Shown here: positions 20,243 to 39,927 of the stretch, piece by piece
How the letters are laid out: each line of letters opens with the position of its first letter
Position numbering within the stretch: the stretch's first letter is position 1
IMG/VR virus record: IMGVR_UViG_3300036770_002192
Location: 1-39,927 of that record
Source of the DNA: a virus
Reading direction: 5' to 3' (one strand)
DNA: 39,927 nt
The notes under the pieces: model-generated
What the model was told of the DNA's origin: nothing
Databases searched by the model: none
What the model saw: the letters and a program-made list of their open reading frames with translations, nothing else
Position numbers and translations under genes: made by a program

Positions 20243-21283
20243 TTAAACTAGGAAAGTCATTGTTCCTGCTACAGACAATAATAGTATTCCCCAAATTCCT
20301 AATGCATAATAATATGTTTTCAGACTTGTTCCAAAGTATCTGTTGCCCACCATAACACATTTATGAGTTGGGCTTAGTAAATATCCAACATAATCTACAG
20401 CAAAAAACCATAAAAAGTACTGAGGTCCAAATACTGTAGACATTAAAACTGCTAATGCTATGAATTTTCCACTGCTTCCCATAACAAAACTCGCCGCAAA
20501 TCCTATACCAGATACTATCAGCATACCTATTAAGGTTGTTACATCAATACCCAATCCTTTAATATACGCATTAATAAGTGCTTCTTGGCTCTTAAAATAG
20601 TTGCCTAATATAATGACAACTGCGACAGTCAATAATACTTCCCAATTTATATAGGACGATAGTTTTTTAATATTCCACGTTTGTGTTAGGAAAATATAAT
20701 ACAATGCAAGCAATCCAAATATTGTAAAGACATGCTTTTCACCACCTAGATAGATATATGTTCCTACAGCGACAAAGAAGGGTAATACGTTGCGCATGAC
20801 TGCGCTAATTTTAAATGGCACCGCTTCAATATTAATCTCATCTTCTTGGACTCTAAAGAAAATGTAATAGAAAATGAATAAACTTGTAACTAACAGCAAC
20901 GGCCACACCATACCCAACCAAGCAGTATATCCTAAACCAAATGTAGCCATTGGAATGATAACTGTTTTTTCTAGTGGGCTCCATAGATAATAATGGTGAG
21001 TAGACAAATAATCTACGATACCCATCTTTTGACGACCATGGTTATGTTCGCAATCTTTATGAGAAATTGTATCTAGTACGCCGGCGCTTACTGTAACTCT
21101 ACCCTCAATGGGTAATACTCCACTTATTGCGCTAATTAAAAATAATACAACACGATTACTTTTAAACGAATCCTTAATATATGAATACACCGGCATAAAG
21201 AGGCTCTTCTCTTTCGCAATGCCTGCAACTATCATAATAAAGAATACTAACCAAAGATATTCTAATCCCTTCAAATACTGCAT
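20243..21283 (-). CDS. DUF401-like multi-pass membrane transporter
   Basis: The 346-residue protein has about ten hydrophobic segments. The pattern SGVLPIEGRVTVSAGVLDTI (about 54-73), followed by a YLWSPLEK loop, matches the shape of the DUF401/TIGR00529 family (reentrant loop with proline and glycines), grouped with ion-transporter superfamily carriers. A second likely reentrant loop, FVMGSSGKFIALAVLMS with LLSPTHKCV, lies near residues 266-310. The substrate is unknown for the family. Charged or His-rich loops (SHKDCEHNHGRQK) might bind a metal. The gene is preceded by a GGAG ribosome site and sits between a conserved unknown protein and a fibre gene. A complete transporter in a phage is unusual; its role is not known. 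Confidence 0.65.
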   Translation of the reverse strand: MQYLKGLEYLWLVFFIMIVAGIAKEKSLFMPVYSYIKDSFKSNRVVLFLISAISGVLPIEGRVTVSAGVLDTISHKDCEHNHGRQKMGIVDYLSTHHYYLWSPLEKTVIIPMATFGLGYTAWLGMVWPLLLVTSLFIFYYIFFRVQEDEINIEAVPFKISAVMRNVLPFFVAVGTYIYLGGEKHVFTIFGLLALYYIFLTQTWNIKKLSSYINWEVLLTVAVVIILGNYFKSQEALINAYIKGLGIDVTTLIGMLIVSGIGFAASFVMGSSGKFIALAVLMSTVFGPQYFLWFFAVDYVGYLLSPTHKCVMVGNRYFGTSLKTYYYALGIWGILLLSVAGTMTFLV

Positions 21284-21286
21284 AAA

Positions 21287-22042
21287 TTACTTTCTCCAAA
21301 AATGAAACGGACATTTCTTTTCTTCTTTATGAAAGTGCCCTTCATATAATTTACGTAATCTAGTCCTATTTAAAATGTAACTCATACTGTTTACAAAATT
21401 ACGCTTTTTAGACCATATATCATCATGTGCGTTCTTATCACGAACAACTAGTTCTAATTCATCTTCACATAAAGGTATGATATGTGCTAAAGGTGTTCCC
21501 GCAGTTATTCTTCCACTACCATTAGGTATATTCCAATTCATTTGAATATTGATTTCTGTACTGATTGCAGGATCTAATATACCGGTCATTGCTTCAAAAT
21601 CAAAACTATCAGGATAAGGAACTGCGGTTATCAATAATTTTACACCTTTAGGAGCGATAACATGCCACGGGGTGTTCAATTTTAATACGCTAGGATGTGC
21701 CCATTTTGGTCTAGGAAGATGTTTACCAGTAGTCTTATAACTATGTGCTGAAGCAATATCTTCATTAGATTTTAATTTTACTAATTCTTTACTAGGAACT
21801 TCCCATGCATAATTGTCGCCGTCAGTTTTGAATGATATGTCATGCCACGCGGGTACGATATAACCATGATTGAATAAATCAAAAATTCCTGGACAGCGAT
21901 ATAAATGAGTCTGATCCTTATCACTTTGCTTGTAATCTGCACGAACAATGTTTACCCATTTTGGTAAACAATCTATGGGTTTTATTACGGGAACGGTGTC
22001 TGCTAGTCCGTATACATCACTATAAAATTCAATTTTGCGCAT
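21287..22042 (-). CDS. Conserved phage protein, DUF6065-like
   Basis: The 251-residue protein is beta-rich and probably barrel-like. Recognisable parts are HLYRCPGIFDLFNHGYIVPA (about 47-66), then WAHPSVLKLNTPWHVIAPKG (about 124-143), then NIQMNWNIPNGSGRITAGTP. This order resembles DUF6065, a phage and bacterial family of unknown function. The C-terminus has a Cys/His patch (HFHKEEKKCPFHF). It overlaps the upstream 2OG oxygenase gene by 14 bases and comes just before the transporter gene, so all three may act in one pathway. No catalytic residues can be assigned. Confidence 0.55.
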   Translation of the reverse strand: MRKIEFYSDVYGLADTVPVIKPIDCLPKWVNIVRADYKQSDKDQTHLYRCPGIFDLFNHGYIVPAWHDISFKTDGDNYAWEVPSKELVKLKSNEDIASAHSYKTTGKHLPRPKWAHPSVLKLNTPWHVIAPKGVKLLITAVPYPDSFDFEAMTGILDPAISTEINIQMNWNIPNGSGRITAGTPLAHIIPLCEDELELVVRDKNAHDDIWSKKRNFVNSMSYILNRTRLRKLYEGHFHKEEKKCPFHFWRK

Positions 22043-22640
22043 ATTGTTGTTCTGGTTTAGGGTTAAATCTGATATTCATTGATATGTTTATTCTATCTCT
22101 ATCGCTTGTGTTTGTCTCAACCTCATGAGGTAGCCAAGCAGGGAATACAAGTAAATCTCCATCTTGAGGAGATATAGCGATAGTGCTTGTGAAGGGTGCA
22201 AATAAATTACAACTATCTGTTATGTTATTAGGGTTATAAAATACAATGTCCCCTGTGCCTGTTGCTTGTAGATAATACACTGCAACATACTGCCATAATC
22301 TATGTTCATGAACCTTGTTCTTACTTCCCGGTTTATTGATATTAGTCCAATATGCTATCTCACTGCCCACAAATTCTTTTGTTTTATCTTTATATGTAGG
22401 GTCTAATTCTTGATAATACATTCCGGCTTCGCTAACAACTTGTTGTATCTCTTTCATTAACCAGTCAATGTTGTTATACTTGTAATAAGTTCTCCAGCAC
22501 CCCGGATTAGTAAACATCATAGTATTTGGATTTTTACGTTGGTCCTCATATGCTTGGTTGATTAAGTCTTGTCTTTGTTCAGGTGTACCGATGTTTACTT
22601 GAAATACATCCCCTGTTAACACTAAAAATCTTTTAATCAT
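22029..22640 (-). CDS. 2-oxoglutarate/Fe(II)-dependent oxygenase-like protein
   Basis: The 203-residue protein resembles phage double-stranded beta-helix oxygenases. A metal-binding block, KVHEHRLWQYVAVYYLQ, is followed by GDIVFYNP. The closing block GDLLVFPAWLPHEVETN, with its metal His, precedes RINISMNI, where the Arg would bind 2-oxoglutarate. I chose the ATG at 22640, which overlaps the upstream stop in an ATGA junction, rather than an in-frame ATG at 22676. Substrates of such phage enzymes are mostly unknown; protein, nucleotide or sugar hydroxylation are all possible. Its coupling to the U32-methyltransferase fusion suggests a shared modification route. Confidence 0.7.
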   Translation of the reverse strand: MIKRFLVLTGDVFQVNIGTPEQRQDLINQAYEDQRKNPNTMMFTNPGCWRTYYKYNNIDWLMKEIQQVVSEAGMYYQELDPTYKDKTKEFVGSEIAYWTNINKPGSKNKVHEHRLWQYVAVYYLQATGTGDIVFYNPNNITDSCNLFAPFTSTIAISPQDGDLLVFPAWLPHEVETNTSDRDRINISMNIRFNPKPEQQYAQN

Positions 22641-24265
22641 TTTTGCACCACCGCAACGTATAATCCATTCCACCACATGTTCTTATTTTCAGGACTATTC
22701 AACATCATCTTAGAATATATCTTTGTAAGTTTTGCGGCGCCAATACCCATATCAGCACCTTGAACTACACCCTGCCAATTAGCATCGTCAAATATTAAAA
22801 TAGCAGTATCAGCAAAGCAATCGCTAAAATATCTTACAGCCCGCATTGTTGTTTCCATATCATGCGGACCATCATAGAAAAATAAATCTATGTCTTTTAT
22901 TTTAGACTTGTCTGTAGCAAATACATCATTATCATGTATATTGATTTTGAAGCCGTTTAGATTCTTTAAGAATTCACCTTTTGTATTGTCGGGTAGACTA
23001 AACTCTTCACTCATAGGTTGAATATTACCTGACCAATTGTCTACACAATGCATATTGATACCTGCTAATGCAACAGGATATGCTGTTGCACCCATAGCAC
23101 TACCAACTTCTAAATAGTTTGTGCTACGTTTGGCTAATGCATGTAAGAGTTTTTGTACTCTAGGACTTGTTAGTCCCTCAACCTTGATATCCAAATCAAT
23201 ATTTACAGAATTAACTAGTTCTTCAGTAACAGCCAATATTTTTGGATGTGCAACTTCCTTAGATTTTGCTTGATATATCTTATCGCAATAATCACAGTCC
23301 CAACAATCAAACTTACAATTCTTTATTTTATCACGCCATGCTTGTATAGGCTTACCCTTAAGATTGGTATCTTCTAAGTATTCCTCAAATGCATTAAACA
23401 GTATTGGTTCATTATTTCTATATCTACGAACAATGTCCATAGTATCATATAATCTATCAATGCTTTCACGCCCATGCATTTTAATCACATCAGCATATTG
23501 CATCAACTCTACCCAATCTTCACGCCATGGTGGAAAGTTTGCAGTCTTAAGCATACTGCTAGGATCTTCCATTTCCCATTTAACACAACTAACTCTGCTT
23601 ATTGTATCGTTAAAGTATTGTGCCCCGTCTTGACCTCTAGTGTTATTGAACTGGAAATGTTCTTTCATAATTGCACAACCGCCAGTGCAACCTTCGTTAG
23701 CAAGCAAACTTATCTTTATACCATATTTGTCTGCGACTTTTCGTATCTTAATAAGTTCATCACGGTCACGCATTAGATCACGGTCAAGATTTACATAATG
23801 AAATCCTGCTTCTGCTAATTTTGCTACATCATTAGCACGATTAACGTCCCATAATATAGTATTCTTAATGAATAATTCAGGAAATGCTTTTTGTATCTGT
23901 CCCGTCAATATCCAAGTAGTATGTGGAATAGTTGCACTACGAACTCCAGCATCGTATAAAAACTTAAAGTTATGTATAAACAAGTCTAAGTTATCTTGAC
24001 TAGGTCTTACTAGTGTATTGTTAAACGTTGCTGATACTTTAATACCCAATGATTTTTGAATATATAATGCAGCCTCAATAGGTGCAGTATCATTGATATT
24101 GAATACGTCACCCATTGCATCCTGTATAAAGGGAGGCATACGACTTGTGAAATACAAATCGTATATAACGTCTTTGTTTTCTTTTAAAAACTCGTAAAAG
24201 TCTTTAAATTGTTGCTCGTTTAGTTTTGGGTTGATAGGAATAGAGAACATATCTCTATGTATCAT
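22637..24265 (-). CDS. Fusion of a U32-like Fe-S TIM-barrel domain and a SAM methyltransferase
   Basis: Residues 1 to about 340 resemble the peptidase U32 superfamily (UbiU/UbiV, RlhA, TrhP). There is a barrel with IPHTTWILTG and LDRDLMRDRDEL, then the signature LLANEGCTGGC with C193 and C197. More cysteines follow: C227 and a cluster C317, C321, C324 and C327 (CKFDCWDCDYC), enough for a [4Fe-4S] cluster. From about residue 378 a class I methyltransferase follows (NYLEVGSAMGATAY, then HCVDNWSG, FFYDGPHD and ILIFDDANW), similar to Methyltransf_24. U32 enzymes work in prephenate-dependent or oxygen-independent hydroxylation of RNA or quinone. This architecture in a phage is unusual, and its substrate cannot be told. 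Confidence 0.75.
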   Translation of the reverse strand: MIHRDMFSIPINPKLNEQQFKDFYEFLKENKDVIYDLYFTSRMPPFIQDAMGDVFNINDTAPIEAALYIQKSLGIKVSATFNNTLVRPSQDNLDLFIHNFKFLYDAGVRSATIPHTTWILTGQIQKAFPELFIKNTILWDVNRANDVAKLAEAGFHYVNLDRDLMRDRDELIKIRKVADKYGIKISLLANEGCTGGCAIMKEHFQFNNTRGQDGAQYFNDTISRVSCVKWEMEDPSSMLKTANFPPWREDWVELMQYADVIKMHGRESIDRLYDTMDIVRRYRNNEPILFNAFEEYLEDTNLKGKPIQAWRDKIKNCKFDCWDCDYCDKIYQAKSKEVAHPKILAVTEELVNSVNIDLDIKVEGLTSPRVQKLLHALAKRSTNYLEVGSAMGATAYPVALAGINMHCVDNWSGNIQPMSEEFSLPDNTKGEFLKNLNGFKINIHDNDVFATDKSKIKDIDLFFYDGPHDMETTMRAVRYFSDCFADTAILIFDDANWQGVVQGADMGIGAAKLTKIYSKMMLNSPENKNMWWNGLYVAVVQK

Positions 24266-24994
24266 TTACAAATCGTACTTAGAACTTTCCTCTATACCCA
24301 ATTCTAATTGCTGTTTGACAGGCATATTATATCCAAAACGATTGTGTATAAGCACATTCAAGTCACGCATGTCTTTGCATTCTCTGATTTCTTTTTCAAT
24401 CAGTTGTTTTTTGGACAATAGTATTGATACTTGATTATCAAATCTATTCTTAGCATCAACTACTTTATTTGCCATTTCAGTAAGTGAAATGTTTCTTTGC
24501 TCTGCCAGTGATTGCAACATTGGAAGATTAGTTTCATTTGTTTCTAAATGTTGTTTCGCTTCTGCAAATTGCGTGTTCCAAGATAAAAACTCTAAGGTAC
24601 TTACGCCCAGATTCAAATGTTCTAATCTTTTATCGTAGACTTCATCTAGCATTTTTCTTAAAACTATCTTCATAAATTTAGCACCATTCTCTAAATCTTT
24701 TTCTGTAAGATAGTATTTCTTTTTTACACTAGAAGGTTCATCGCTACTAACAATATCTAGTTGATCATTGATAAGTGTGTTAACTCTTACACTTACATAA
24801 CCACTGAAATTACCTGCAAACTTCCATGCTAGTGCAACATCTTCGTCATCAATGACTGTAGGATTAAGATGTTTGATTGGTACTAAATCTTTAACGCTAT
24901 CATCTAACCAACCAACGATATAGTCAATGTATTGACCAACACGTTTAACTAATCCTAACTGCGGTTCACTGATCGTTTTGAATATTAGAAACAT
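24266..24994 (-). CDS. Coiled-coil phage protein of unknown function (242 aa)
   Basis: The N-terminal part (about 1-90) is mixed alpha/beta. The C-terminal part is helical, with long charged heptad-like stretches (FAEAKQHLETNETNLPMLQ, and NRFDNQVSILLSKKQLIEKE). It starts 29 bases inside the preceding 252-residue gene, after a purine-rich GAAGAAGAAA that can serve as ribosome site. Position between the fibre genes and the modification enzymes suggests a virion or assembly role, but no family is recognised. Confidence 0.55.
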   Translation of the reverse strand: MFLIFKTISEPQLGLVKRVGQYIDYIVGWLDDSVKDLVPIKHLNPTVIDDEDVALAWKFAGNFSGYVSVRVNTLINDQLDIVSSDEPSSVKKKYYLTEKDLENGAKFMKIVLRKMLDEVYDKRLEHLNLGVSTLEFLSWNTQFAEAKQHLETNETNLPMLQSLAEQRNISLTEMANKVVDAKNRFDNQVSILLSKKQLIEKEIRECKDMRDLNVLIHNRFGYNMPVKQQLELGIEESSKYDL

Positions 24995-25724
24995 TTTCTT
25001 CTTCTGCCTTAAACATCAATTGTTTTACTAATGGTGAATTAGTTAACATATTGTTTTGGACGTTTTGGTTTACTTGACTTAGTAAATTATTAGTACGAAT
25101 TTCATTTCTTACAAAGAAATCGCATGCTAACTTCATTACTTCTAACTGTTGGTCAGGAGCAAGCATGACTACTGCATCCATATTACCTACACCTGCACGA
25201 CCATAAGCAATCATATCCATTGCTGTTTGTTTTGCTAATCGTAATGTCCAATAATCTCTTTCTAATCTCTCACATAATTCAGGATCATCAAACACATCAA
25301 TCAACTTAGTACCATCAGGTAATGTTCCTTCAGGACTGTTATTAAAGTCATCAATGACTTTTAAAAACAGATTTCTTTCTGCTGTGGCATCACGTAGTCT
25401 AAGTTGACTTCTTTTCAATGCAGCCTGCATCTTAAAAATTTCAAGTTCATGTAATGCTTTCTGTGCAGGGCTTTGGCATGCGGCTGCTTTTTCTTCTTCA
25501 AGTTCTATCTCAAGTTGAGCCTTTTTATTCTCATATAACATCGACTCAACTGCCATTTCACGGCCGTTTAGTTCTATGATATATTGTTTTAATTTTGCAT
25601 ATGGTGTGATTTGAGCATTACCCACAAAGTGCTTAACTTTGAATTCGGGCATTACCAAATTACGATTATTTGATTTTTCTATAAGGTCTCTGTGTTCTTG
25701 GCTTAAATTGTCATGGTCATTCAT
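24966..25724 (-). CDS. Coiled-coil phage protein of unknown function (252 aa)
   Basis: A mostly helical, highly charged protein. The middle has a long coiled-coil-like stretch (MLYENKKAQLEIELEEEK, then ALHELEIFKMQAALKRSQLR). The C-terminal half is also helical (LAPDQQLEVMKLACDFFVRN). The ATG at 25724 has GGAG eight bases upstream. It overlaps the following gene by 29 bases. I recognise no domain; a tail or neck structural or scaffolding role is possible. It follows the three short fibre genes. Confidence 0.55.
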   Translation of the reverse strand: MNDHDNLSQEHRDLIEKSNNRNLVMPEFKVKHFVGNAQITPYAKLKQYIIELNGREMAVESMLYENKKAQLEIELEEEKAAACQSPAQKALHELEIFKMQAALKRSQLRLRDATAERNLFLKVIDDFNNSPEGTLPDGTKLIDVFDDPELCERLERDYWTLRLAKQTAMDMIAYGRAGVGNMDAVVMLAPDQQLEVMKLACDFFVRNEIRTNNLLSQVNQNVQNNMLTNSPLVKQLMFKAEEENVSNIQNDQ

Positions 25725-25747: not shown

Positions 25748-26821
25748 TTATGCCTTCCAAAAGCCGTGCCCAGAACTTCCTCCCGGGACGCCAGTTCTAA
25801 CACTTCCTGATCCTAATTCATAACCAGTGTCAGAACTATATGTGAACTTCCAACCTACATTATTTTGAGCACCATTATACATACCCATCATATATTGCCA
25901 ATTTTGACCCATATCAAAGTTTTCTTCACCTGAGTTACCTACGGGTTTAGTTACGGTCCAGTATGAATCAGTGGCAGAAACATAACGTCTTAGATTGTAG
26001 CCCTCATTATATGTTCCTTCGTTACCCATATAACCTTTACCCCATTTGCTACTAATTCCCTTTTGTTGTCCGTTTGTTTGCACTCCGTTTGCTGTACCTA
26101 AGGTAAATGTAGTGCCTGTACTAAAAGTTAACTTTTGTCCTGAACTACCCCAAAAATATCCAAATGTCTCGTCACTCCAAGCACTAACACCATATTGATA
26201 ATTACTATCGCCCGTCTGCCCCGTGCCGCTACCTGTTACAAATACTTCTGTAGCCATTGTCCATACACTAATTGATGAGTCACCCCCACCTGTAACATAT
26301 GCATATTGATGCTCTTTAAATATCGTACCACAGTCGTTTCTTGCTACTGGCATATCCCAAGAACCCTGTGTTCCTGCTGTAGTCTCAGTATTCATATTAA
26401 ATGCTACAGTTGTTCTTGTTGTTTCTCCAAATGCCGCGGCCGCTGCACACCACATCCAAGCACGTGTTAAACTACATGCACCAGAAGTGTAGTTTGCATT
26501 TTGTGCTAACAGATCGCCTAGATTAGTACATACGTCGGTCGCATGTTGCATGCGATTAACGTTTTTCCATGGACTACTATCTTTGTAGCCACCTGCAACA
26601 TAACTTGCTGTAATGATTTGTCTATAAGGAAATTGTAATCCACCTGCTGTTTGTGTTACGTCTTTCCATAATCCACCATCATAAATTTCCATGATGTTAG
26701 TATCTGAATTATAGATTACTTGACCAGTAACTGGACTTGCTGGTCTTGTAGCCGAAGTATATACTGGAATACTAACTCCATTAGCACTTAGTATATCAGT
26801 ATTGTTTAATTTAAAAGCCAC
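25748..26821 (-). CDS. Short tail fibre paralogue 3 (357 aa)
   Basis: This is the last of three tandem paralogues. Its start is GTG at 26821, directly after the previous stop, with GGAGAGG as ribosome site. The N-terminal module TSATRPASPVTGQVIYNSDT, followed by MEIYDGGLW, is shared by short fibres of many phages. The core has NVNRMQHATDVCTNLGDLL, then AYVTGGGDSS and KGISSKWGKGYMGNEGTYN. The C-terminus ends LGSGSVRTGVPGGSSGHGFW, nearly identical in all three. Two of its last residues (GFW) differ from the CYW or CVW of the sisters. The repeated beta pattern would suit a propeller or kelch-like fold. Host recognition is the likely role. Confidence 0.8.
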   Translation of the reverse strand: MAFKLNNTDILSANGVSIPVYTSATRPASPVTGQVIYNSDTNIMEIYDGGLWKDVTQTAGGLQFPYRQIITASYVAGGYKDSSPWKNVNRMQHATDVCTNLGDLLAQNANYTSGACSLTRAWMWCAAAAAFGETTRTTVAFNMNTETTAGTQGSWDMPVARNDCGTIFKEHQYAYVTGGGDSSISVWTMATEVFVTGSGTGQTGDSNYQYGVSAWSDETFGYFWGSSGQKLTFSTGTTFTLGTANGVQTNGQQKGISSKWGKGYMGNEGTYNEGYNLRRYVSATDSYWTVTKPVGNSGEENFDMGQNWQYMMGMYNGAQNNVGWKFTYSSDTGYELGSGSVRTGVPGGSSGHGFWKA

Positions 26822-27895
26822 TTAACCTCTCCAATAACAATGACCAGAACTACCACCAGGTACCCCTGTTCTTACACTACCACTACCCAATTCAAAACCT
26901 GTATCAGTTGAATATGTAAATTTCCAACCTCTATTGTTTTGCACGCCGTCATACATGCCCATCATATATTGCCATGCTTGTCCCATATCATAGTTTTCTT
27001 CACCTATGTTGCCAATTGGTCTTGTAACAAGTGTATATGTATCAGTTGAAACTACATATCTTCGAAAATTATAACCACCGTTATAACCTCCTTCATTACC
27101 ACAATATCCCCTACCTAATTTACTACTGATACCCTTTTGTTGACCATTAACATTCACACCACTGGCAGTAGCAACTGAGTAGGTAGTTCCTGATGCAAAA
27201 GTAACTTTTTGTCCTCCGGCACCCCACCAGTAACCAACATTTTCGTCACTGAATGCGCTGGTTCCATAACTATAACCAGAATCACCAGTAACTCCGGCAA
27301 CTGCTCCGGCACTCATAGTTTGTGTTGCGAAAGTGAAAACATTTACTTGAGTTCCGCCACCGCCGGTTACATATGCATATTGTGTTTCTTTGAACACTGT
27401 AGCACTATCATTCTTGCCGTTAATTAGATTCCAATTGTTGTTTGTGCCAACAGTTGTTTCAGTAAACATTTGAAAGGCTACTGTTAATGTTGCGGCACTA
27501 TTGTTATTATTACCCTCTGCCCCCCAAGTGTATGCTGTTGTTAAATCGTTTGCTCCAGATGTGTAGTTTGCCGCAACACTTAATAAACTACCTAAGTTAG
27601 TACATATATCTGTACTATGATTCATTCTATTGACATTTTGCCATGGTGTGCCATCTTTGTATCCACCTGCTACAAAACTATTAGTAATAATTTGTCTATA
27701 TAAAAATGCACCACCGCTGGTATTATAGATGACAGGTTTCCAAATACCCTGATCATACATCTCTAAGTAACCAGTTGTACTGTTATAAATTGTTTGTCCT
27801 GTTGTAGGATTGCTAGGTCTTGTGGCTGTAGTAAATGAGGGTACAGATATACCCAGTGTTGACATTATATCTGTAGAACCAACTTTAAATGTCAT
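26822..27895 (-). CDS. Short tail fibre paralogue 2 (357 aa)
   Basis: This is the middle member of the tandem trio. The ATG at 27895 is chosen (TAATG overlap with the upstream stop), giving MTFKVGSTDIMSTLG aligned with the sister N-termini; an in-frame ATG at 27907 adds four residues. It carries the shared RPSNPTTGQTIYNSTTG module, NVNRMNHSTDICTNLGSLL, KGISSKLGRGYCGNEGGYN, and the end GSVRTGVPGGSSGHCYW. The middle part differs in length and loop sequence from its neighbours, as expected for duplicated adhesins under diversification. Confidence 0.82.
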   Translation of the reverse strand: MTFKVGSTDIMSTLGISVPSFTTATRPSNPTTGQTIYNSTTGYLEMYDQGIWKPVIYNTSGGAFLYRQIITNSFVAGGYKDGTPWQNVNRMNHSTDICTNLGSLLSVAANYTSGANDLTTAYTWGAEGNNNNSAATLTVAFQMFTETTVGTNNNWNLINGKNDSATVFKETQYAYVTGGGGTQVNVFTFATQTMSAGAVAGVTGDSGYSYGTSAFSDENVGYWWGAGGQKVTFASGTTYSVATASGVNVNGQQKGISSKLGRGYCGNEGGYNGGYNFRRYVVSTDTYTLVTRPIGNIGEENYDMGQAWQYMMGMYDGVQNNRGWKFTYSTDTGFELGSGSVRTGVPGGSSGHCYWRG

Positions 27896-29022
27896 TATGC
27901 GCTCCAAACACAGTGACCAGAACTACCACCAGGTACTCCTGTTCTTACACTACCACTGCCCAATTCAATACCGGTATCGGTACCATAAGTAAACTTCCAA
28001 CCTCGATTGTTCTGTGCTCCATCATACATGCCCATCATGTATTGATGTGATTGTCCCATGTCGAGATTTTCTTCTCCGCTATTACCAATTGGTTTATTAA
28101 TTGTTGTTGCTGTTTCTGTGCTGAATACCATACGATACATAATATAACCACCGTTATAAGTTCCATTGGCGCCTGCATATCCACGACCTAGTTTACTGTT
28201 AATACCCTTTTGCTGACCATGTGCGCCACCTAATGGGGTACCTCGTATTTCATATGCAGGTTTTAAAAGATTATTACTTGTGAATGTATGTGTATTAAAT
28301 GTTAATTTAGTACTACCCTGACTTGTACTCCAAAAATAGCAAGCATTCTCATCACTAACTGAACTACTATCTGCACTTCCTTGAGCATTATATGATAATG
28401 ATGTATTGAATGGTTGCTGCCATGGAATGCTAGTGTACATTGCTTCTGTTGTTAGATTAAAAATATCCATGCTTGCAGACCCGCCACCCATAACAAATGC
28501 AAATTCTGTTTCTTTAAAGCCAGTCGCACTATCATCTCTACTAACTCTGATATTCCATGCACTGTTAGTACCGGCAGTAGTTTCAGTATTCATATTGATA
28601 GCACATGTAGTTGTACCTGATCCCATACCATTACATGACCAAATAAATCCTCTAGTAGTATTATTGACCCCGCTAACATATGCACCGGCTTGTGATAACA
28701 AGTCTCCTAAGTTAGTACATACATCTGTAGCATGTGTCATTCTATTAACATTGCGCCATGGGCTACTATTTTGATAGCCACCGCAGACAAAACTTTTTGT
28801 GATAACCTGTCTATATAGATATCCAGCAGTGCCGGGAAATACTCCAACGTTATTCCATGCTCCATTAGCATAGACTTGCATTGTCTGTGTAGTAGAGTTG
28901 TATATTACTTGACCTTGCACAGGGCTTGCAGGTCGTGTTGCAGTAGTAAATGTAGCAACGTTAAATCCATTGCTAGTAGCATTAACGTTTGCGTTAGCGT
29001 TGTTGCCTACATAGAAACCCAT
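27895..29022 (-). CDS. Short tail fibre paralogue 1 (375 aa)
   Basis: This is the first of the trio, joined to the long fibre gene by a TAATG stop-start overlap with AAGGTGAA upstream. It shares TATRPASPVQGQVIYNSTTQ, then NVNRMTHATDVCTNLGDLL, KGINSKLGRGYAG and the final GSVRTGVPGGSSGHCVW. It has an insertion near residues 195-250 (WQQPFNTSLSYNAQGS, LLKPAYEIRGTPLGGAHG) missing from the others. The N-terminus has an Asn/Ala-rich start (NNANANVNATSNG). A homotrimeric adhesin is the likely role; the target is unknown. Confidence 0.82.
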   Translation of the reverse strand: MGFYVGNNANANVNATSNGFNVATFTTATRPASPVQGQVIYNSTTQTMQVYANGAWNNVGVFPGTAGYLYRQVITKSFVCGGYQNSSPWRNVNRMTHATDVCTNLGDLLSQAGAYVSGVNNTTRGFIWSCNGMGSGTTTCAINMNTETTAGTNSAWNIRVSRDDSATGFKETEFAFVMGGGSASMDIFNLTTEAMYTSIPWQQPFNTSLSYNAQGSADSSSVSDENACYFWSTSQGSTKLTFNTHTFTSNNLLKPAYEIRGTPLGGAHGQQKGINSKLGRGYAGANGTYNGGYIMYRMVFSTETATTINKPIGNSGEENLDMGQSHQYMMGMYDGAQNNRGWKFTYGTDTGIELGSGSVRTGVPGGSSGHCVWSA

Positions 29023-34845: not shown

Positions 34846-35934
34846 TTACTGATATCTATATTTAATAATTACTATGCCGGAACCACCATTTCCGCCCGTT
34901 TGATACGGAGAAGGAGCACCATTTCCTGCACCTGATCCACCACCACCGCCGGTGTTTGCACCGCCGGCACCACCTAAATATCCACTACAACTTCCTCCTG
35001 GATTTCTTCCACCAGTTCCGCCACTACCAAATCTACTGCTGTCTCCCCAGCCGGCTCCGCCGCCACCTGCACCACCATTACCTCCATAAGTGCCTGCTGT
35101 GTTATAGTAATATATCATTCCGGCACCACCACCACCATAATAATAATTGTTACCGTCTATATTATTTTGAACTCCTGTGCCCCCATTGCCACCTGAACTT
35201 GCATTGTTTGGTGGACTGCTACCATTACCCCCGGCGCCGGCGCCGCCACCTGTAGGGTAATTTCCACCATTCTGTCCTGTTCCACCTGTGTAGCCACCAT
35301 ATCTAGTAAAAGTATTCCAAACATTAGTACCTGTTTGTCCTTGATAGCCTGCGGTTCTTGATCCGCCCCCGCCACCGTTAGCAATAGTATTTCTTAAAGT
35401 TGTTACCCCGTAATAGTCTGAACCTACACCGCCGCCACCAGGTAATGCTGTTTCGCCAAATGCAGTAGTAGAACTCCCTGGTGGTATATTAATACTAGGA
35501 CCATTACCTGGATCTGTGCCTCCGCCTCCAATCACAATAGGATATGCAGTTGCACTAACTGTAACTGAAGCGCAGTATATGACTTCTCCACCACCGCCAC
35601 CGCCAGTGTAACTACCGCCGGACGCACCTCCTCCAACCATCAAAACTTCAATTGAAGTGTTATAAGGTGCGACACTTACAAGAAATGACCCTGAACTTGT
35701 GAAAGTATGTATTTTGTAATTACCTGATGTAGTTACTGTACCGCCAGTTGCTTCTATGTATCCTATTTTGATTGCGCCGAACCAACCACCGTTTGTGTAT
35801 ATTTCAATATAATTAGTATCAGTATTGAATCTAGTATACCCTTCAGCAGGGCTTGACGGTCTTTGAGCAGTGGTTCCCATTGGATATTGTAAATATCCAG
35901 TGTCATTCACTGATGTATTTTTAAGAGTTGCCAT
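34846..35934 (-). CDS. Glycine-rich tail fibre paralogue (362 aa)
   Basis: The N-terminal module NDTGYLQYPMGTTAQRPSSP (residues 10-29) is followed by a strand-rich part (YKIHTFTSSGSFLVSV and EVLMVGGGASGG). A long Gly/Asn/Ala-rich body with short GGGG and GNGG runs fills most of the rest, ending NGGSGIVIIKYRYQ. Such proteins resemble the polyglycine-helix adhesins of T4-like phages (gp38 of Salmonella phage S16), which bind host receptors through loops between Gly-rich helices. It is joined to the preceding gene by a TAATG stop-start overlap. The Gly-rich body is likely variable between relatives. Confidence 0.8.
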   Translation of the reverse strand: MATLKNTSVNDTGYLQYPMGTTAQRPSSPAEGYTRFNTDTNYIEIYTNGGWFGAIKIGYIEATGGTVTTSGNYKIHTFTSSGSFLVSVAPYNTSIEVLMVGGGASGGSYTGGGGGGEVIYCASVTVSATAYPIVIGGGGTDPGNGPSINIPPGSSTTAFGETALPGGGGVGSDYYGVTTLRNTIANGGGGGSRTAGYQGQTGTNVWNTFTRYGGYTGGTGQNGGNYPTGGGAGAGGNGSSPPNNASSGGNGGTGVQNNIDGNNYYYGGGGAGMIYYYNTAGTYGGNGGAGGGGAGWGDSSRFGSGGTGGRNPGGSCSGYLGGAGGANTGGGGGSGAGNGAPSPYQTGGNGGSGIVIIKYRYQ

Positions 35935-37013
35935 TATTGATATCTATATCTTATAATCACAATACCACTACCGCCGGTGCCGCCTGATAATCCACCAGGC
36001 CCTCCATCACCAGCGCCGGCACCGCCGCCACCGCCTGTATTTGCGCCACCGCTTCCACCTACATATCCAGATGGATTTCCTCCTGAATTAAATCCTGCAC
36101 CACCTGTTCCAAAATAACCACCTGGTGCCCAGCCACCACCTCCGCCACCTGCACCGCCGTTGCCACCTCTTGTGCTAGCAGAGCCGTTATAATAAATCAT
36201 TCCTGCGCCGCCACCGCCCCAGTATAAAGCAGCGCCTGTTATAGAAATGCTTACACCATCTCCACCATTACCACCGCCTACACCATTGTTTACAGGGGCA
36301 ACACCGTTAGCAGTTGCGCCTCCACCACCACCGCATGGATAATTACCGTTGTTTTGTCCACTGCCGCCACTATATCCACCGTATCTAGTAAAAGGTATTG
36401 ACACGTTAGTGCCTGTTGAGCCACCATAACCACTTGAGCGTGATCCTCCTCCGCCACCATTAGCATATGTGCTAGATGCAGGAGTTGTAGTTGAATCAGA
36501 ACCTTTACCTCCACCCCCGCCTTTGGCAGTTTCCCCAAAACCTGTAGTTGTAGAACCACCTCCACCTATAATATCACCACCGTTACCATTACTAGATGCA
36601 CCACCTCCACCTATAACTAATGAATAAGAGGCTGCTGATAGTGATGCTGTTGATGTATATAATACTTCCCCTGCACCACCGCCACCTGAGTAACCACCTG
36701 AGCCTCCACCGCCACCAACCATTAATATTTCAAATGTTGAGCCAGTAGGAACTGAAGTTACTGTAAAAGTACCTGATGCTGTAAAGGTATGTATTTTGTA
36801 ATTACCTGAATAGGTAATTGTTCCGCCAGTAGCCTGAATCGTGCCTATAGGAGCAACGGTATTCCATACACCGTTGTAATACATTTCTATAGATGCTGTT
36901 GTGGAATTTACCCTCATGTAACCATTAGCAGGTGAAGGTCTTTGAGCAGTAGTTCCTACTGGTAACTGTAAGTACCCTGTATCATTTATAGATGAATTTT
37001 TTAATGTAGCCAT
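35934..37013 (-). CDS. Glycine-rich tail fibre paralogue (359 aa)
   Basis: It shares the opening MATLKNSSINDTGYLQLPVG and the closing TGGSGIVIIRYRYQ with its neighbours. The N-terminal 100 residues and the SGIVII end are conserved among the paralogues, while the Gly-rich centre differs in loop content (TRYGGYSGGSGQNNGNYPCG against TRYGGYTGGTGQNGG in the next gene). No ribosome site is seen before its ATG; AATAAATA lies 5 bases upstream inside a perfect inverted repeat. A gene-duplicate adhesin is the natural reading. Confidence 0.8.
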   Translation of the reverse strand: MATLKNSSINDTGYLQLPVGTTAQRPSPANGYMRVNSTTASIEMYYNGVWNTVAPIGTIQATGGTITYSGNYKIHTFTASGTFTVTSVPTGSTFEILMVGGGGGSGGYSGGGGAGEVLYTSTASLSAASYSLVIGGGGASSNGNGGDIIGGGGSTTTGFGETAKGGGGGKGSDSTTTPASSTYANGGGGGSRSSGYGGSTGTNVSIPFTRYGGYSGGSGQNNGNYPCGGGGGATANGVAPVNNGVGGGNGGDGVSISITGAALYWGGGGAGMIYYNGSASTRGGNGGAGGGGGGWAPGGYFGTGGAGFNSGGNPSGYVGGSGGANTGGGGGAGAGDGGPGGLSGGTGGSGIVIIRYRYQ

Positions 37014-37034
37014 AATACTATTTATTATAGTATT
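37014..37034. promoter_or_regulatory. Inverted repeat containing a late-promoter box at the oxygenase/fibre junction
   Basis: Perfect 8-bp arms AATACTAT and ATAGTATT are separated by 5 bases (37014-37021 and 37027-37034). The minus-strand AATAAATA (37026-37019) lies across the loop, 5 bases before the fibre ATG at 37013. The TAA stop of the oxygenase gene (37027-37025) is also inside. The arrangement repeats that at 34452-34476. Confidence 0.5.
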
Positions 37035-37642
37035 AATTCTGTTAGTTCGTTATCGTCTCCTAACTTTCCAACAGGAAATGTGTTGAAACTTAAACTCATT
37101 CTAGTATATTGAGTCTCTAATCTAGTTTCAACCATATGCGTAAGTTTACTAGGAAACAACAATAATTGACCAGTTACACTAGGTAACCACCAACTGTCGC
37201 TATTGTAGGTGTTATATTCTCTAGCGGGGATCTTAAATTGTTTGTAACTATCCTCATAGAAATAAATTTTGTCAGTTTCATTATTAGTTTGAAAATAAAA
37301 TACACCACTAATAAAACTGTTTGGATGTGTATGTCTATGATGGAATTCCATACCCTCAGTATAGTTACACCAACTCTGTGTAATTCTTAATCTTACATTG
37401 TTTTTTGGCTGATATATTCTATCAAAGTATTCTTGTGTACAAGAATTGAGGAAATCACTTATTTCCGTCAATTCAGGTTCTTTAAGTACATAGAAATTTG
37501 TACTTTTCTGATTACCAATATTCTTTGCTTTTTCTAAATCACGAACAAAAATTAGTTCTTCTTGTGTGAATTCTCTAGGAAATGTGTAGATTCCAACTGG
37601 TGTAGGGAAAAGATTGACTATATTAGATTGTATGTTATTCAT
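37025..37642 (-). CDS. 2OG-Fe(II) oxygenase, TIGR02466-like
   Basis: The 205-residue protein begins VNLFPTPVGIYTFPREF, the typical start of the TIGR02466 putative oxygenase family. Metal and cosubstrate motifs are visible: FHHRHTHPNSFISGVFYFQ (His ligand region) and GQLLLFPSKLTHMVE with the distal His, then RMSLSFNTF with the Arg expected to hold 2-oxoglutarate. Members occur widely in T4-like marine phages beside fibre genes. Hydroxylation of fibre residues or a host molecule is possible but unproven. There is no ribosome site, but ATTAAATA lies 5 bases before the ATG. Confidence 0.75.
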   Translation of the reverse strand: MNNIQSNIVNLFPTPVGIYTFPREFTQEELIFVRDLEKAKNIGNQKSTNFYVLKEPELTEISDFLNSCTQEYFDRIYQPKNNVRLRITQSWCNYTEGMEFHHRHTHPNSFISGVFYFQTNNETDKIYFYEDSYKQFKIPAREYNTYNSDSWWLPSVTGQLLLFPSKLTHMVETRLETQYTRMSLSFNTFPVGKLGDDNELTELIL

Positions 37643-37647
37643 TCAGA

Positions 37648-37655
37648 TATTTAAT
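37648..37655 (-). promoter_or_regulatory. ATTAAATA box 5 bases before the oxygenase ATG
   Basis: On the minus strand the box is followed by TCTGA and then ATG at 37642. There is no Shine-Dalgarno sequence. The first two bases deviate from NATAAATA, but the spacing equals that at 47, 15546 and 37013. Confidence 0.4.
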
Positions 37656-38028
37656 TGATAAATTCTATCCAAGATAATTCATCTTCGTTCCAAACATATC
37701 GTTTACCGTCATCTGGGTAAGGTACACGACTTTCCCATAAACAAGTTTGTTCGTTTAATACCCAACTTGGATATGGTTGTTGTTCATAAAAAGCATCACG
37801 GACTGGGTCGTATGCAAATCTTACTCCAGCAAAATTCTTTCTTAATGCTTTAGATTGGTCTAGGCTAGGAGTATTTGTATCAGGATCATAATGGATTCCT
37901 CCTCTAGTGTTGTAACTAGTTTGAATCCATTGACCAGGAATACCATCATCATATGTATCTATAAATTCCTGTTCTGCTACAATGACATTAATTACTAAAC
38001 CATCAACTACTTTTGCAAAATGTGCCAT
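37651..38028 (-). CDS. Small fibre-associated protein, MAHFA family (125 aa)
   Basis: Paralogue of the 121-residue protein at 34.5-34.8 kb. It shares MAHFA, a central KNFAGVRFAYDP block against KNYAGVGYKYDE, the QPYPSWVLNEQTCLWES block, and the closing PYPDDGKRYVWNEDELSWIE. Both copies precede or follow Gly-rich fibre genes, so it seems to belong to a duplicated fibre cassette. It has no signal peptide or membrane segment. Function is unknown; assembly factor and virion protein are both possible. Confidence 0.65.
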   Translation of the reverse strand: MAHFAKVVDGLVINVIVAEQEFIDTYDDGIPGQWIQTSYNTRGGIHYDPDTNTPSLDQSKALRKNFAGVRFAYDPVRDAFYEQQPYPSWVLNEQTCLWESRVPYPDDGKRYVWNEDELSWIEFIN

Positions 38029-38040
38029 AATTTATTCCCA

Positions 38041-39120
38041 TTATATCAAATATCTAATAATAACAATACCGCTGCCACCGGTGCCGCCTGAATAAGTGCT
38101 CCAAGCGCCACCGCCTCCACCTCCACCGGTGTTTGTTCCGCCGGCTCCGCCGTTGCTAGTATTTGAAGCGTTACTACCATTGTTTATTCCGCCGGTACCG
38201 CCTAATCCACCTCCCCCACCATTGGCGGAGCCACCTCCACCGCCACCGTAACCGCCATATCCACCTACTGCACTAGTATAGGTTCCACCGCCCCCACCAC
38301 CAGCCCAATAATAGTTTGTGCCATTAATTGCACTTTGCATACCAGGCCCGCCTGAACCTTGACCACCATATCCAGTATCACCTGTGGTGTTGGGATTAGT
38401 ATCAGGGCCTTGTCCTCCAGCGCCACCTCCACCTGCCGCTCTAGTAGGGTCTCCGGTTCGTCCTGCCGTCATGTTACCGCCCCGAGTACCATATATTGTA
38501 CCTGTGTTACTTCCAGTGCTATTACCTGAAGTTCCACCACCTTGATTTATTCTACTGTTGTTCGATGCGGCGCCTCCACCGCACCCGCCGGCAACGCCAT
38601 CACCACTATCATGTTGACCTGAACCTCCTCCACCTGCTCCAGTAGCACCAAATGCAGTTGAGTTTCCACCGCTTCCACTAGTTCCAGACGATACTGCGGA
38701 TCCTCCTGCACCTACTACGATAGAATAATTAGTAGCCGTAACAGGAACTGCTGGTAAATATACTACACCACCACCTCCACCACCTCCACCCAAAGCTGGG
38801 CCGCCGGCTCCGCCACCGCCGACTATAAGAACGTCTACAGTAGATGATGCATTTGCAGATGACACTGAAAATGTACCTGAAGTAGTAAATGTGTGAATTT
38901 TATATGAACCTACCGTAGTTATAGTTCCACCGGTAGCACTAATAGACTGCAACGATGCTGCCTGCACCCAAGATGAATTAAAATAAACTTCTAACGCACT
39001 AGTAGTAGAGTTTACTCTAGTGTATCCAGTTGTAGGGCTTACTGGTCTTTGTGCTGTAGTACCGACAGGAAGTGCTAAAAATCCAGTATCATTAACCGTT
39101 GTGTTTTTAAGTGTTGCCAT
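38041..39120 (-). CDS. Glycine-rich tail fibre paralogue (359 aa)
   Basis: Opening NDTGFLALPVGTTAQRPVSP and ending GGTGGSGIVIIRYLI, this is the second Gly-rich fibre in transcription order. The N-terminal strand region (YKIHTFTTSGTFSVSS, VDVLIVGGGGAGG) matches the other copies. The Gly-rich body is its own (RINQGGGTSGNSTG, GGQGPDTNPNTTGD). The ending lacks the final YQ or FQ of its paralogues. It starts 1 base after the stop of the preceding partial gene. Confidence 0.8.
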   Translation of the reverse strand: MATLKNTTVNDTGFLALPVGTTAQRPVSPTTGYTRVNSTTSALEVYFNSSWVQAASLQSISATGGTITTVGSYKIHTFTTSGTFSVSSANASSTVDVLIVGGGGAGGPALGGGGGGGGVVYLPAVPVTATNYSIVVGAGGSAVSSGTSGSGGNSTAFGATGAGGGGSGQHDSGDGVAGGCGGGAASNNSRINQGGGTSGNSTGSNTGTIYGTRGGNMTAGRTGDPTRAAGGGGAGGQGPDTNPNTTGDTGYGGQGSGGPGMQSAINGTNYYWAGGGGGGTYTSAVGGYGGYGGGGGGSANGGGGGLGGTGGINNGSNASNTSNGGAGGTNTGGGGGGGAWSTYSGGTGGSGIVIIRYLI

Positions 39121-39121
39121 A

Positions 39122-39927
39122 TTACTGAAACCTATATTTTATAATAACTATACCACTGCCGCCTGCGCCACCAATACCGTTTTCATTTGCACCGGAACCT
39201 CCGCCGCTACCTGTGTTTGCGCCGCCGGCGCCGCCTGTTCCTGAATCTGTTACTGATCCATTGCCACCTGCATTTCTACCTTGAAGTCCGCCTAATCCTG
39301 CAGTCATATAACTAGAAGTTACACCCCAAACTGATGCGCCACCACCGCCACCTAATCCACCACTTCCTCCCCATGAAGGTACATTAGTATTATTAAATGC
39401 GGCTCCACCTCCTCCTGCTCCATACAAATAGTTGTTTCCGTCTATATTTATAAGAATTCCGTTTCCACCTGTACCACCTTTGGTTGAATTACCGTTGATT
39501 CCACTTGTGCCGGCGCCACCGCCCCCTCCGCAACCATAATTATATCCAGTACCGGGATTACCCGATCCACCTGATTTGCCTGCATAAACTGTGTATCCGC
39601 TAACAACAGGAGCAGTGGCAGTACCTGCTATACAATTATAGGATCCGCCACCGCTATTGGCACCATTGCCACCGTTACCACCTCTACCGGAAGTATCATC
39701 TCCATATTCGTTTGCTCCGCTACCTCCTCCTGTAGCAGTAACACCAAATGCGCTACTAGAACTACCTGGATTATTTGATGCATTACTAGTAGATTGGGAA
39801 CCGCCGGCTCCTACCACTATAGAATAGGTTCCAGCAGTTATAGATGCACTTGCGCTATATAACACGGCGGCGCCTGCTCCACCTCCTCCATGACCAAAAC
39901 CTCCTGCTCCACCTCCTCCTACTATAA
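39122..39927 (-). CDS. Glycine-rich tail fibre paralogue, 5' end outside the window
   Basis: The reading frame stays open to the window edge (encoding IVGGGGAGGFGHGGGGAG just before AAVLYSASASI), so the true start lies beyond 39927 and a GTG at 39865 is internal. Family marks are present: the Gly-rich body and the end GGSGIVIIKYRFQ. About 268 residues are visible. It is the first Gly-rich fibre in transcription order and shows the cassette continues outside the window. Confidence 0.8.
   Translation of the reverse strand, partial: IVGGGGAGGFGHGGGGAGAAVLYSASASITAGTYSIVVGAGGSQSTSNASNNPGSSSSAFGVTATGGGSGANEYGDDTSGRGGNGGNGANSGGGSYNCIAGTATAPVVSGYTVYAGKSGGSGNPGTGYNYGCGGGGGAGTSGINGNSTKGGTGGNGILINIDGNNYLYGAGGGGAAFNNTNVPSWGGSGGLGGGGGASVWGVTSSYMTAGLGGLQGRNAGGNGSVTDSGTGGAGGANTGSGGGSGANENGIGGAGGSGIVIIKYRFQ

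Follow-up and report, generated by a model that had tools for sequence, protein, structure and literature searches.

Where the products of U32 enzymes are known, the reaction is the hydroxylation of an RNA base or a quinone precursor. In the yrrMNO system of Bacillus subtilis, such hydroxylases are paired with a cation-dependent O-methyltransferase: TrhP1 and TrhP2 (TrhP requires prephenate) supply the hydroxyl group of 5-hydroxyuridine-34 in tRNA, and TrmR (YrrM), encoded in the same operon, then methylates it; furthermore, a fusion of TrhO with TrmR is present in three eukaryotes (PMC6599085). Another described pair, the O2-independent ubiquinone hydroxylases UbiU and UbiV, consists of small U32 proteins that hold a [4Fe-4S] cluster on conserved cysteines (PMC6747719). 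Here, we compare these systems with a locus in a 39.9-kb viral record (IMGVR_UViG_3300036770_002192, positions 1 to 39,927; hereafter, the window), where a single gene in a T4-like tail-fiber region encodes a predicted U32-like domain fused to a predicted O-methyltransferase domain.

Pairs of a U32 hydroxylase and an O-methyltransferase are already known, and the fusion represents a hitherto unstudied variant of this pairing. Like yrrMNO, the fusion is predicted to combine both activities; unlike yrrMNO, which has separate genes, a tRNA substrate, and a canonical U32 sequence and cysteine pattern, it is a single chain with seven invariant cysteines and lies in a fiber block. UbiU and UbiV, in turn, differ from it in forming a heterodimer, in having four cysteines each, and in lacking both a fused methyltransferase and a convincing profile match. 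In the searchable literature, we did not find a description of the form seen here, in which a phage fiber module encodes a divergent fusion with seven cysteines that has stand-alone relatives in bacteria. An earlier note on this DNA, made from the sequence, had called the system undescribed; this holds for the fusion itself but is too broad in view of the operonic pair and the eukaryotic TrhO-TrmR fusion. The protein belongs to a family, T4-GC 354 (phrog_1458), that was previously catalogued only as hypothetical and is annotated as such in the cyanomyoviruses Syn33, P-SSM4, P-HM2, and S-ShM2; we describe here its predicted fold, its cysteines, its gene linkage, and its relatives in bacteria. 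A literature search returned no paper that connects U32 or the sericin-like protein with cyanophages, nor any such phage-encoded fiber modification, which is weak evidence, as most subscription papers lay outside its scope.

The N-terminal domain

The AlphaFold (AF2) models of the whole fusion and of its N-terminal domain alone, with predicted local distance difference test (pLDDT) scores of 87.9 and 84.1, respectively, both had the archaeal U32 protein Mk0906 (PDB 5d88), which carries no methyltransferase, as their best barrel match (Z scores, 16.2 and 16.7). For the domain alone, the alignment spanned 228 residues at 3.5 Å, with 8% identity across the aligned residues; the next unrelated TIM barrel reached a Z score of 13.8 (VIA-align), and Foldseek also ranked 5d88 first (E = 3e-7). 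On the predicted model, the domain would thus have a U32-type TIM barrel fold, in agreement with the U32-like part read from the sequence in the earlier note. A profile comparison placed residues ~60 to 177 in register with TrhP (36.3) and RlhA (34.8), against scores of 11 to 18 for the controls (eight E. coli proteins, including two TIM barrels), and gave no comparable alignment with UbiU or UbiV; the TrhP and RlhA scores are weak taken alone yet agree with the fold.

Seven cysteines (residues 193, 197, 227, 317, 321, 324, and 327) were found to be invariant in 32 phage members filtered at 85% identity and are also kept in distant bacterial homologues, which rules out a chance origin of the pattern. 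They comprise the two motifs that had been picked out beforehand, NEGC, starting at residue 190 (C193-x3-C197), and a late four-cysteine cluster (C317-x3-C321-x2-C324-x2-C327). C193 and C197 come after strand 6 (residues 184 to 189); as read from the sequences, C169/C176 of UbiU and C170/C177 of TrhP likewise follow that strand. Judging from these cysteines, the domain may bind one or two iron-sulfur (Fe-S) clusters.

Two results weigh against the assignment to U32. First, the U32 models of Pfam and NCBIfam matched nothing in the window and 29 relatives at E ≤ 1; a search of the record with PF01136 (Peptidase_U32), which had no hit at that threshold in 28 relatives either, returned nothing, though controls matched, and when the domain was searched by sequence against Pfam, NCBIfam, and the PDB, neither U32 nor any other family emerged. 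The profile search against U32 and radical enzymes that the earlier note had suggested therefore yielded no curated match, and it was the fold that pointed to U32, with no unrelated family displacing that assignment. Second, the common U32 motif, CX6CX15CX3/4C, which binds a [4Fe-4S] cluster, differs from the spacing seen here (CX3CX29C ... CX3CX2CX2C), although UbiV has a C-x3-C pair as in the fusion (PMC6747719). Since UbiV itself deviates from the common motif, the spacing weakens membership of U32 rather than likeness to it. Being uncommon for U32, it leads us to place the domain, as modeled, in a separate U32-like clade outside the curated family.

The segment C317-x3-C321-x2-C324 has the spacing of radical S-adenosylmethionine (SAM) enzymes, and the barrel might therefore be a noncanonical radical enzyme instead of a hydroxylase. 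ThiC-like enzymes have their cluster motif at the C terminus; besides, the CX3CX2C motif and a fourth cysteine are invariant, and a radical-SAM/SPASM enzyme is found among the bacterial neighbors discussed below. However, the motif sits C-terminally, at residues 317 to 324, and not in the first barrel loop as in radical-SAM enzymes, the best fold match is a U32 protein, and the radical-SAM models of Pfam matched none of 29 members, so that we consider a radical enzyme very unlikely.

The C-terminal domain

The C-terminal half is predicted to be a cation-dependent O-methyltransferase, on the basis of family, fold, and active-site matches. Methyltransf_24 scored above its Pfam gathering score (29.2 versus 26.3 bits; E = 1.8e-6) and was matched in 28 of 29 members, while the fold matches were the cation-dependent O-methyltransferases TomG, COMT, SafC, CCoAOMT, and TrmR (Z scores, 15 to 17.5). 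An acidic triad (D465, D493, and D494), invariant in 23 members, has the metal-binding pattern D...D-N / D...D-D and aligns with the FIDAA and TDN motifs of YrrM. In a sequence-profile search of the whole PDB, B. subtilis YrrM (TrmR) was the sole match below 0.01 (E = 6.4e-4; next, 0.2) and is the nearest solved sequence to this domain. Because the hydroxyl group methylated by TrmR is supplied by the U32 enzymes TrhP1 and TrhP2, the two halves of the fusion resemble two sequentially acting enzymes. The fusion is not a contig artifact, as homologues spanning at least 80% of the query were found in 121 phage records. Moreover, in some phages the N domain and the methyltransferase are encoded by two genes, which overlap by ~20 bases and occupy the same genomic place as the fusion (L120:5001-6628, L130:4995-6586, and L147:4995-6604), which argues that the two halves form a functional unit.

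The same resemblance raises the question of an RNA substrate: as TrhP and TrmR in one protein, the fusion might make 5-hydroxyuridine and from it 5-methoxyuridine, or a similar modification, in the tRNA or rRNA of host or phage and so retune translation during infection. The TrmR match fits such a role, as do the shared operon and sequential action of TrhP1/TrhP2 and TrmR, the existence of TrhO-TrmR fusions (PMC6599085), and the N-domain profile comparison, which favors the RNA-hydroxylating TrhP and RlhA over UbiU and UbiV. On the other hand, the fusion co-occurs gene by gene with fiber-block proteins and has no extra RNA-binding domain, and its bacterial homologues, unlike a housekeeping tRNA enzyme, are rare and without methyltransferase (both points are detailed below). 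Both fusion domains are also acidic in most members, but TrhP is likewise acidic, and isoelectric points therefore give no means of telling an RNA from a protein substrate. Taken together, we regard an RNA target as unlikely.

Conservation within the tail-fiber block

The fusion family occurs in many T4-like phages, marine and freshwater, within the tail-fiber gene block. It was present in 123 phage records, every one a cyanophage (many are near-identical isolates, so that the set amounts to ~12 lineages by name), and in at least 269 IMG/VR stretches; a search of a plasmid collection for relatives of the fusion found none. In all readable loci, the fusion adjoins fiber genes; where the flank was long enough, the genes upstream of it were nearly always phrog_1417 together with phrog_1409 and phrog_1604, the order of the last two being variable. 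Starting from phrog_1409, we found the fusion N domain in 51 of the 52 IMG/VR loci whose downstream flank was 2.5 kb or longer, a synteny inflated by the fact that the IMG/VR sets are nearest relatives by construction. Among the phage records, phrog_1409 occurred in the same number as the fusion, with an identical organism breakdown, phrog_1604 in 117, and full-length phrog_1417 in 115, with a partial phrog_1417 match, mostly to a short N-terminal stretch, in ~40 more. In S-ShM2, the fusion lies ~6 kb from phrog_1409, and both are still present. The conserved unit is thus fiber (phrog_1417)-phrog_1409-phrog_1604-fusion, with a DUF401 gene added in most noncyanophage members (40 of 43 IMG/VR loci with enough flank; not seen beside the fusion gene in the cyanophage loci read).

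The earlier note had instead treated the fusion, a 2-oxoglutarate (2OG) oxygenase, a DUF6065-like protein, and a transporter, at positions 20243 to 24265, as the unit. These genes do co-occur elsewhere, and the oxygenase was identified correctly (Table 1), but it was found in only 25 of the 43 loci and phrog_7084 in 22, whereas the fiber gene, phrog_1409, and phrog_1604 are nearly always present. The four genes therefore make up the downstream end of a larger fiber block, and some of them are optional; the best-supported partners of the fusion lie outside that interval. The DUF6065 identity was dropped: for the open reading frame at 21287 to 22042, now assigned to phrog_7084, a search of the record with PF19541 returned nothing at E ≤ 10, and among 14 relatives the profile reached an E value of 0.2 in one.

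The frequency of DUF401 might point to a small molecule or sugar as substrate, for example, a methylated glycan on the fiber or host surface, for which DUF401 would move either a precursor or the product, with the 2OG oxygenase performing a further step. Sugar O-methyltransferases such as MycF and TylF likewise belong to the Methyltransf_24 family and have an Asp-Asp-Asp site. In addition, the substrate of UbiU-UbiV is a small quinone precursor (PMC6747719). Nevertheless, the tracked genes beside the fusion in 84 loci encode fiber-block proteins, the cyanophage loci read are without DUF401 at this position, and no small-molecule pathway was recognized in the loci read, where not every neighbor was scanned; a substrate of this type seems improbable to us.

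Bacterial homologues

A genome scan and group searches found homologues in 5 of 399 Campylobacterales genomes, an estimate that covers Campylobacterota alone, as the single genome-contig scan used two phage-like motifs only. They are stand-alone N domains of 323 to 355 residues without methyltransferase, except that one of the five genomes has two tandem divergent copies of 540 to 550 residues (L197:662-3954), each a divergent U32-like domain with an N-terminal extension. In three of the five genomes, the homologue lies among genes for export or for the modification of peptides or proteins; although the sample is small, this is consistent with a protein substrate. The neighbors are TolC, HlyD, and an HlyB-like ATP-binding cassette (ABC) exporter with a C39-type domain in L095; DUF6445 and a radical-SAM/SPASM enzyme in L195; and TolC, HlyD proteins, an M50-HlyD protein, an SecA-like protein, and a tryptophan halogenase in L196 and L282. 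M50, halogenase, DUF6445, radical-SAM/SPASM, and ABC assignments are Pfam matches, while TolC, HlyD, and SecA were assigned by eye from the sequences. The L196/L282 cluster (L196:172-8831 and L282:1999-6326), which also has a GAF-HlyD protein and two kinase-like proteins beside the stand-alone U32-like protein, looks like a cluster for the modification and export of secreted proteins.

Proposed function

From the observed domain makeup, the invariant cysteines and aspartates, and the tight linkage to fiber genes, together with the predicted U32-like fold, we infer Fe-S binding, hydroxylation, the place of methylation as the second step, and the substrate, as follows. The fusion would be a two-step modifying enzyme of the phage fiber module, in which the U32-like barrel, with its one or two Fe-S clusters, would hydroxylate a target and the cation-dependent O-methyltransferase half would then use SAM to methylate the new hydroxyl group. 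Hydroxylation followed by methylation had been anticipated in the earlier note, and the U32 fold result and the TrhP-TrmR precedent (PMC6599085) give it more weight; by this analogy, we put Fe-S-dependent hydroxylation, followed by SAM- and metal-dependent O-methylation, at an even chance or slightly better. The target would foremost be the adjacent phrog_1417 receptor-binding-type fiber protein, with the phrog_1409 and phrog_1604 proteins as partners, whereas DUF401 may, at a guess, supply or move a cosubstrate. We tentatively favor a fiber or other virion protein over tRNA as the target, at somewhat less than an even chance. It is more doubtful whether the full scenario applies, i.e., that the phage's own receptor-binding fibers receive a methoxy-type mark from a single-chain Fe-S hydroxylase/O-methyltransferase that represents the phage branch of a wider family of U32-like enzymes, used by bacteria to modify exported proteins or peptides.

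Several points speak against a fiber target. Many unrelated genes have been described in the fiber block, and since such genes may serve other ends, synteny cannot name the substrate (PMC7029224). The phrog_1417 sequences show no single obvious target residue, and the link to TrmR points equally to RNA. Among the bacterial homologues, the one in L194 is located near CRISPR type III genes, and one contig has the tandem divergent copies only.

If a U32-like enzyme does act on fiber proteins, both the posttranslational modification and the enzyme class would be ones not yet described. A divergent U32-like family with its own O-methyltransferase, tied to fiber genes, allows a direct test of whether U32 chemistry acts on proteins and whether phages modify their own host-binding fibers; it also gives T4-GC 354, an orphan conserved in cyanophages, a testable function, and phages that carry it (Syn33, Syn19, P-SSM4, and S-ShM2) have been isolated on cultured hosts.

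Gene layout and further observations

The coordinates of the four minus-strand open reading frames of the earlier note were confirmed exactly (Table 1). The fusion and oxygenase genes overlap by 4 bases (ATGA) if the latter starts at the ATG at 22640, and the other junctions are a 14-base overlap and a 3-base gap; with an alternative GTG start, the oxygenase gene would extend to 22676. The gene block is unbroken upstream, where the end of phrog_1604 abuts the start of the fusion gene and is preceded by phrog_1409 and the three phrog_1417 genes; these and long fiber proteins surround the fusion, followed by ribonucleotide reductase genes.

Table 1. Positions of the fusion gene, its domains, and neighboring genes in the window
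Feature	Position	Strand	Basis
Fusion protein, 542 amino acids, phrog_1458 / T4-GC 354	22637..24265	-	phrog_1458 match, E = 2e-153
Predicted U32-like N-terminal domain, residues 1-341, 7 invariant Cys	23243..24265	-	Fold match and Cys invariance
Predicted O-methyltransferase domain, residues ~339-542, invariant D465/D493/D494	22637..23248	-	Pfam Methyltransf_24, PDB profile match, folds
2OG-Fe(II) oxygenase, PF13759, phrog_81, optional part	22029..22640 (ATG)	-	54.5 bits versus gathering score of 27
phrog_7084 protein, optional part	21287..22042	-	PHROG match
DUF401 membrane protein, phrog_14035, putative transporter	20243..21283	-	PF04165, E = 9.8e-9; several hydrophobic segments
phrog_1604 accessory protein	24266..24994	-	PHROG match
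phrog_1409 accessory protein, homologue of T4-GC 353	24966..25724	-	Co-occurs with fusion
phrog_1417 fiber-like protein copy 3 (sericin-like, T4-GC 351), proposed substrate	25748..26821	-	
phrog_1417 fiber-like protein copy 2	26822..27907	-	
phrog_1417 fiber-like protein copy 1	27895..29022	-	

The three phrog_1417 paralogues (25748 to 29022) have strongly kept Gly-Tyr, GEEN, and GxYxGxQNN motifs and may form a propeller-like receptor-binding domain. Two relatives of the phrog_7084 protein gave a weak hint of a dUTPase fold. In S-ShM2, the genes directly after T4-GC 353 and ahead of the distant fusion encode three 2OG-Fe(II) oxygenases and a "minor coat protein" (L088:2251-4927). A "DNA endonuclease V" (T4-GC 100) is annotated after the fusion in Syn33 and P-SSM4 (L082:10695-11195 and L089:9704-10213), but this label is doubtful, since the PHROG so named also matches the 2OG oxygenase of the window. 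The module is also present on two contigs (L093 and L094) titled as Euryarchaeota and Dehalococcoidia metagenome-assembled genomes, which look like phage contigs binned with hosts. Finally, four successive phrog_2295 paralogues (34846 to 39865) are located upstream of the long fiber gene.

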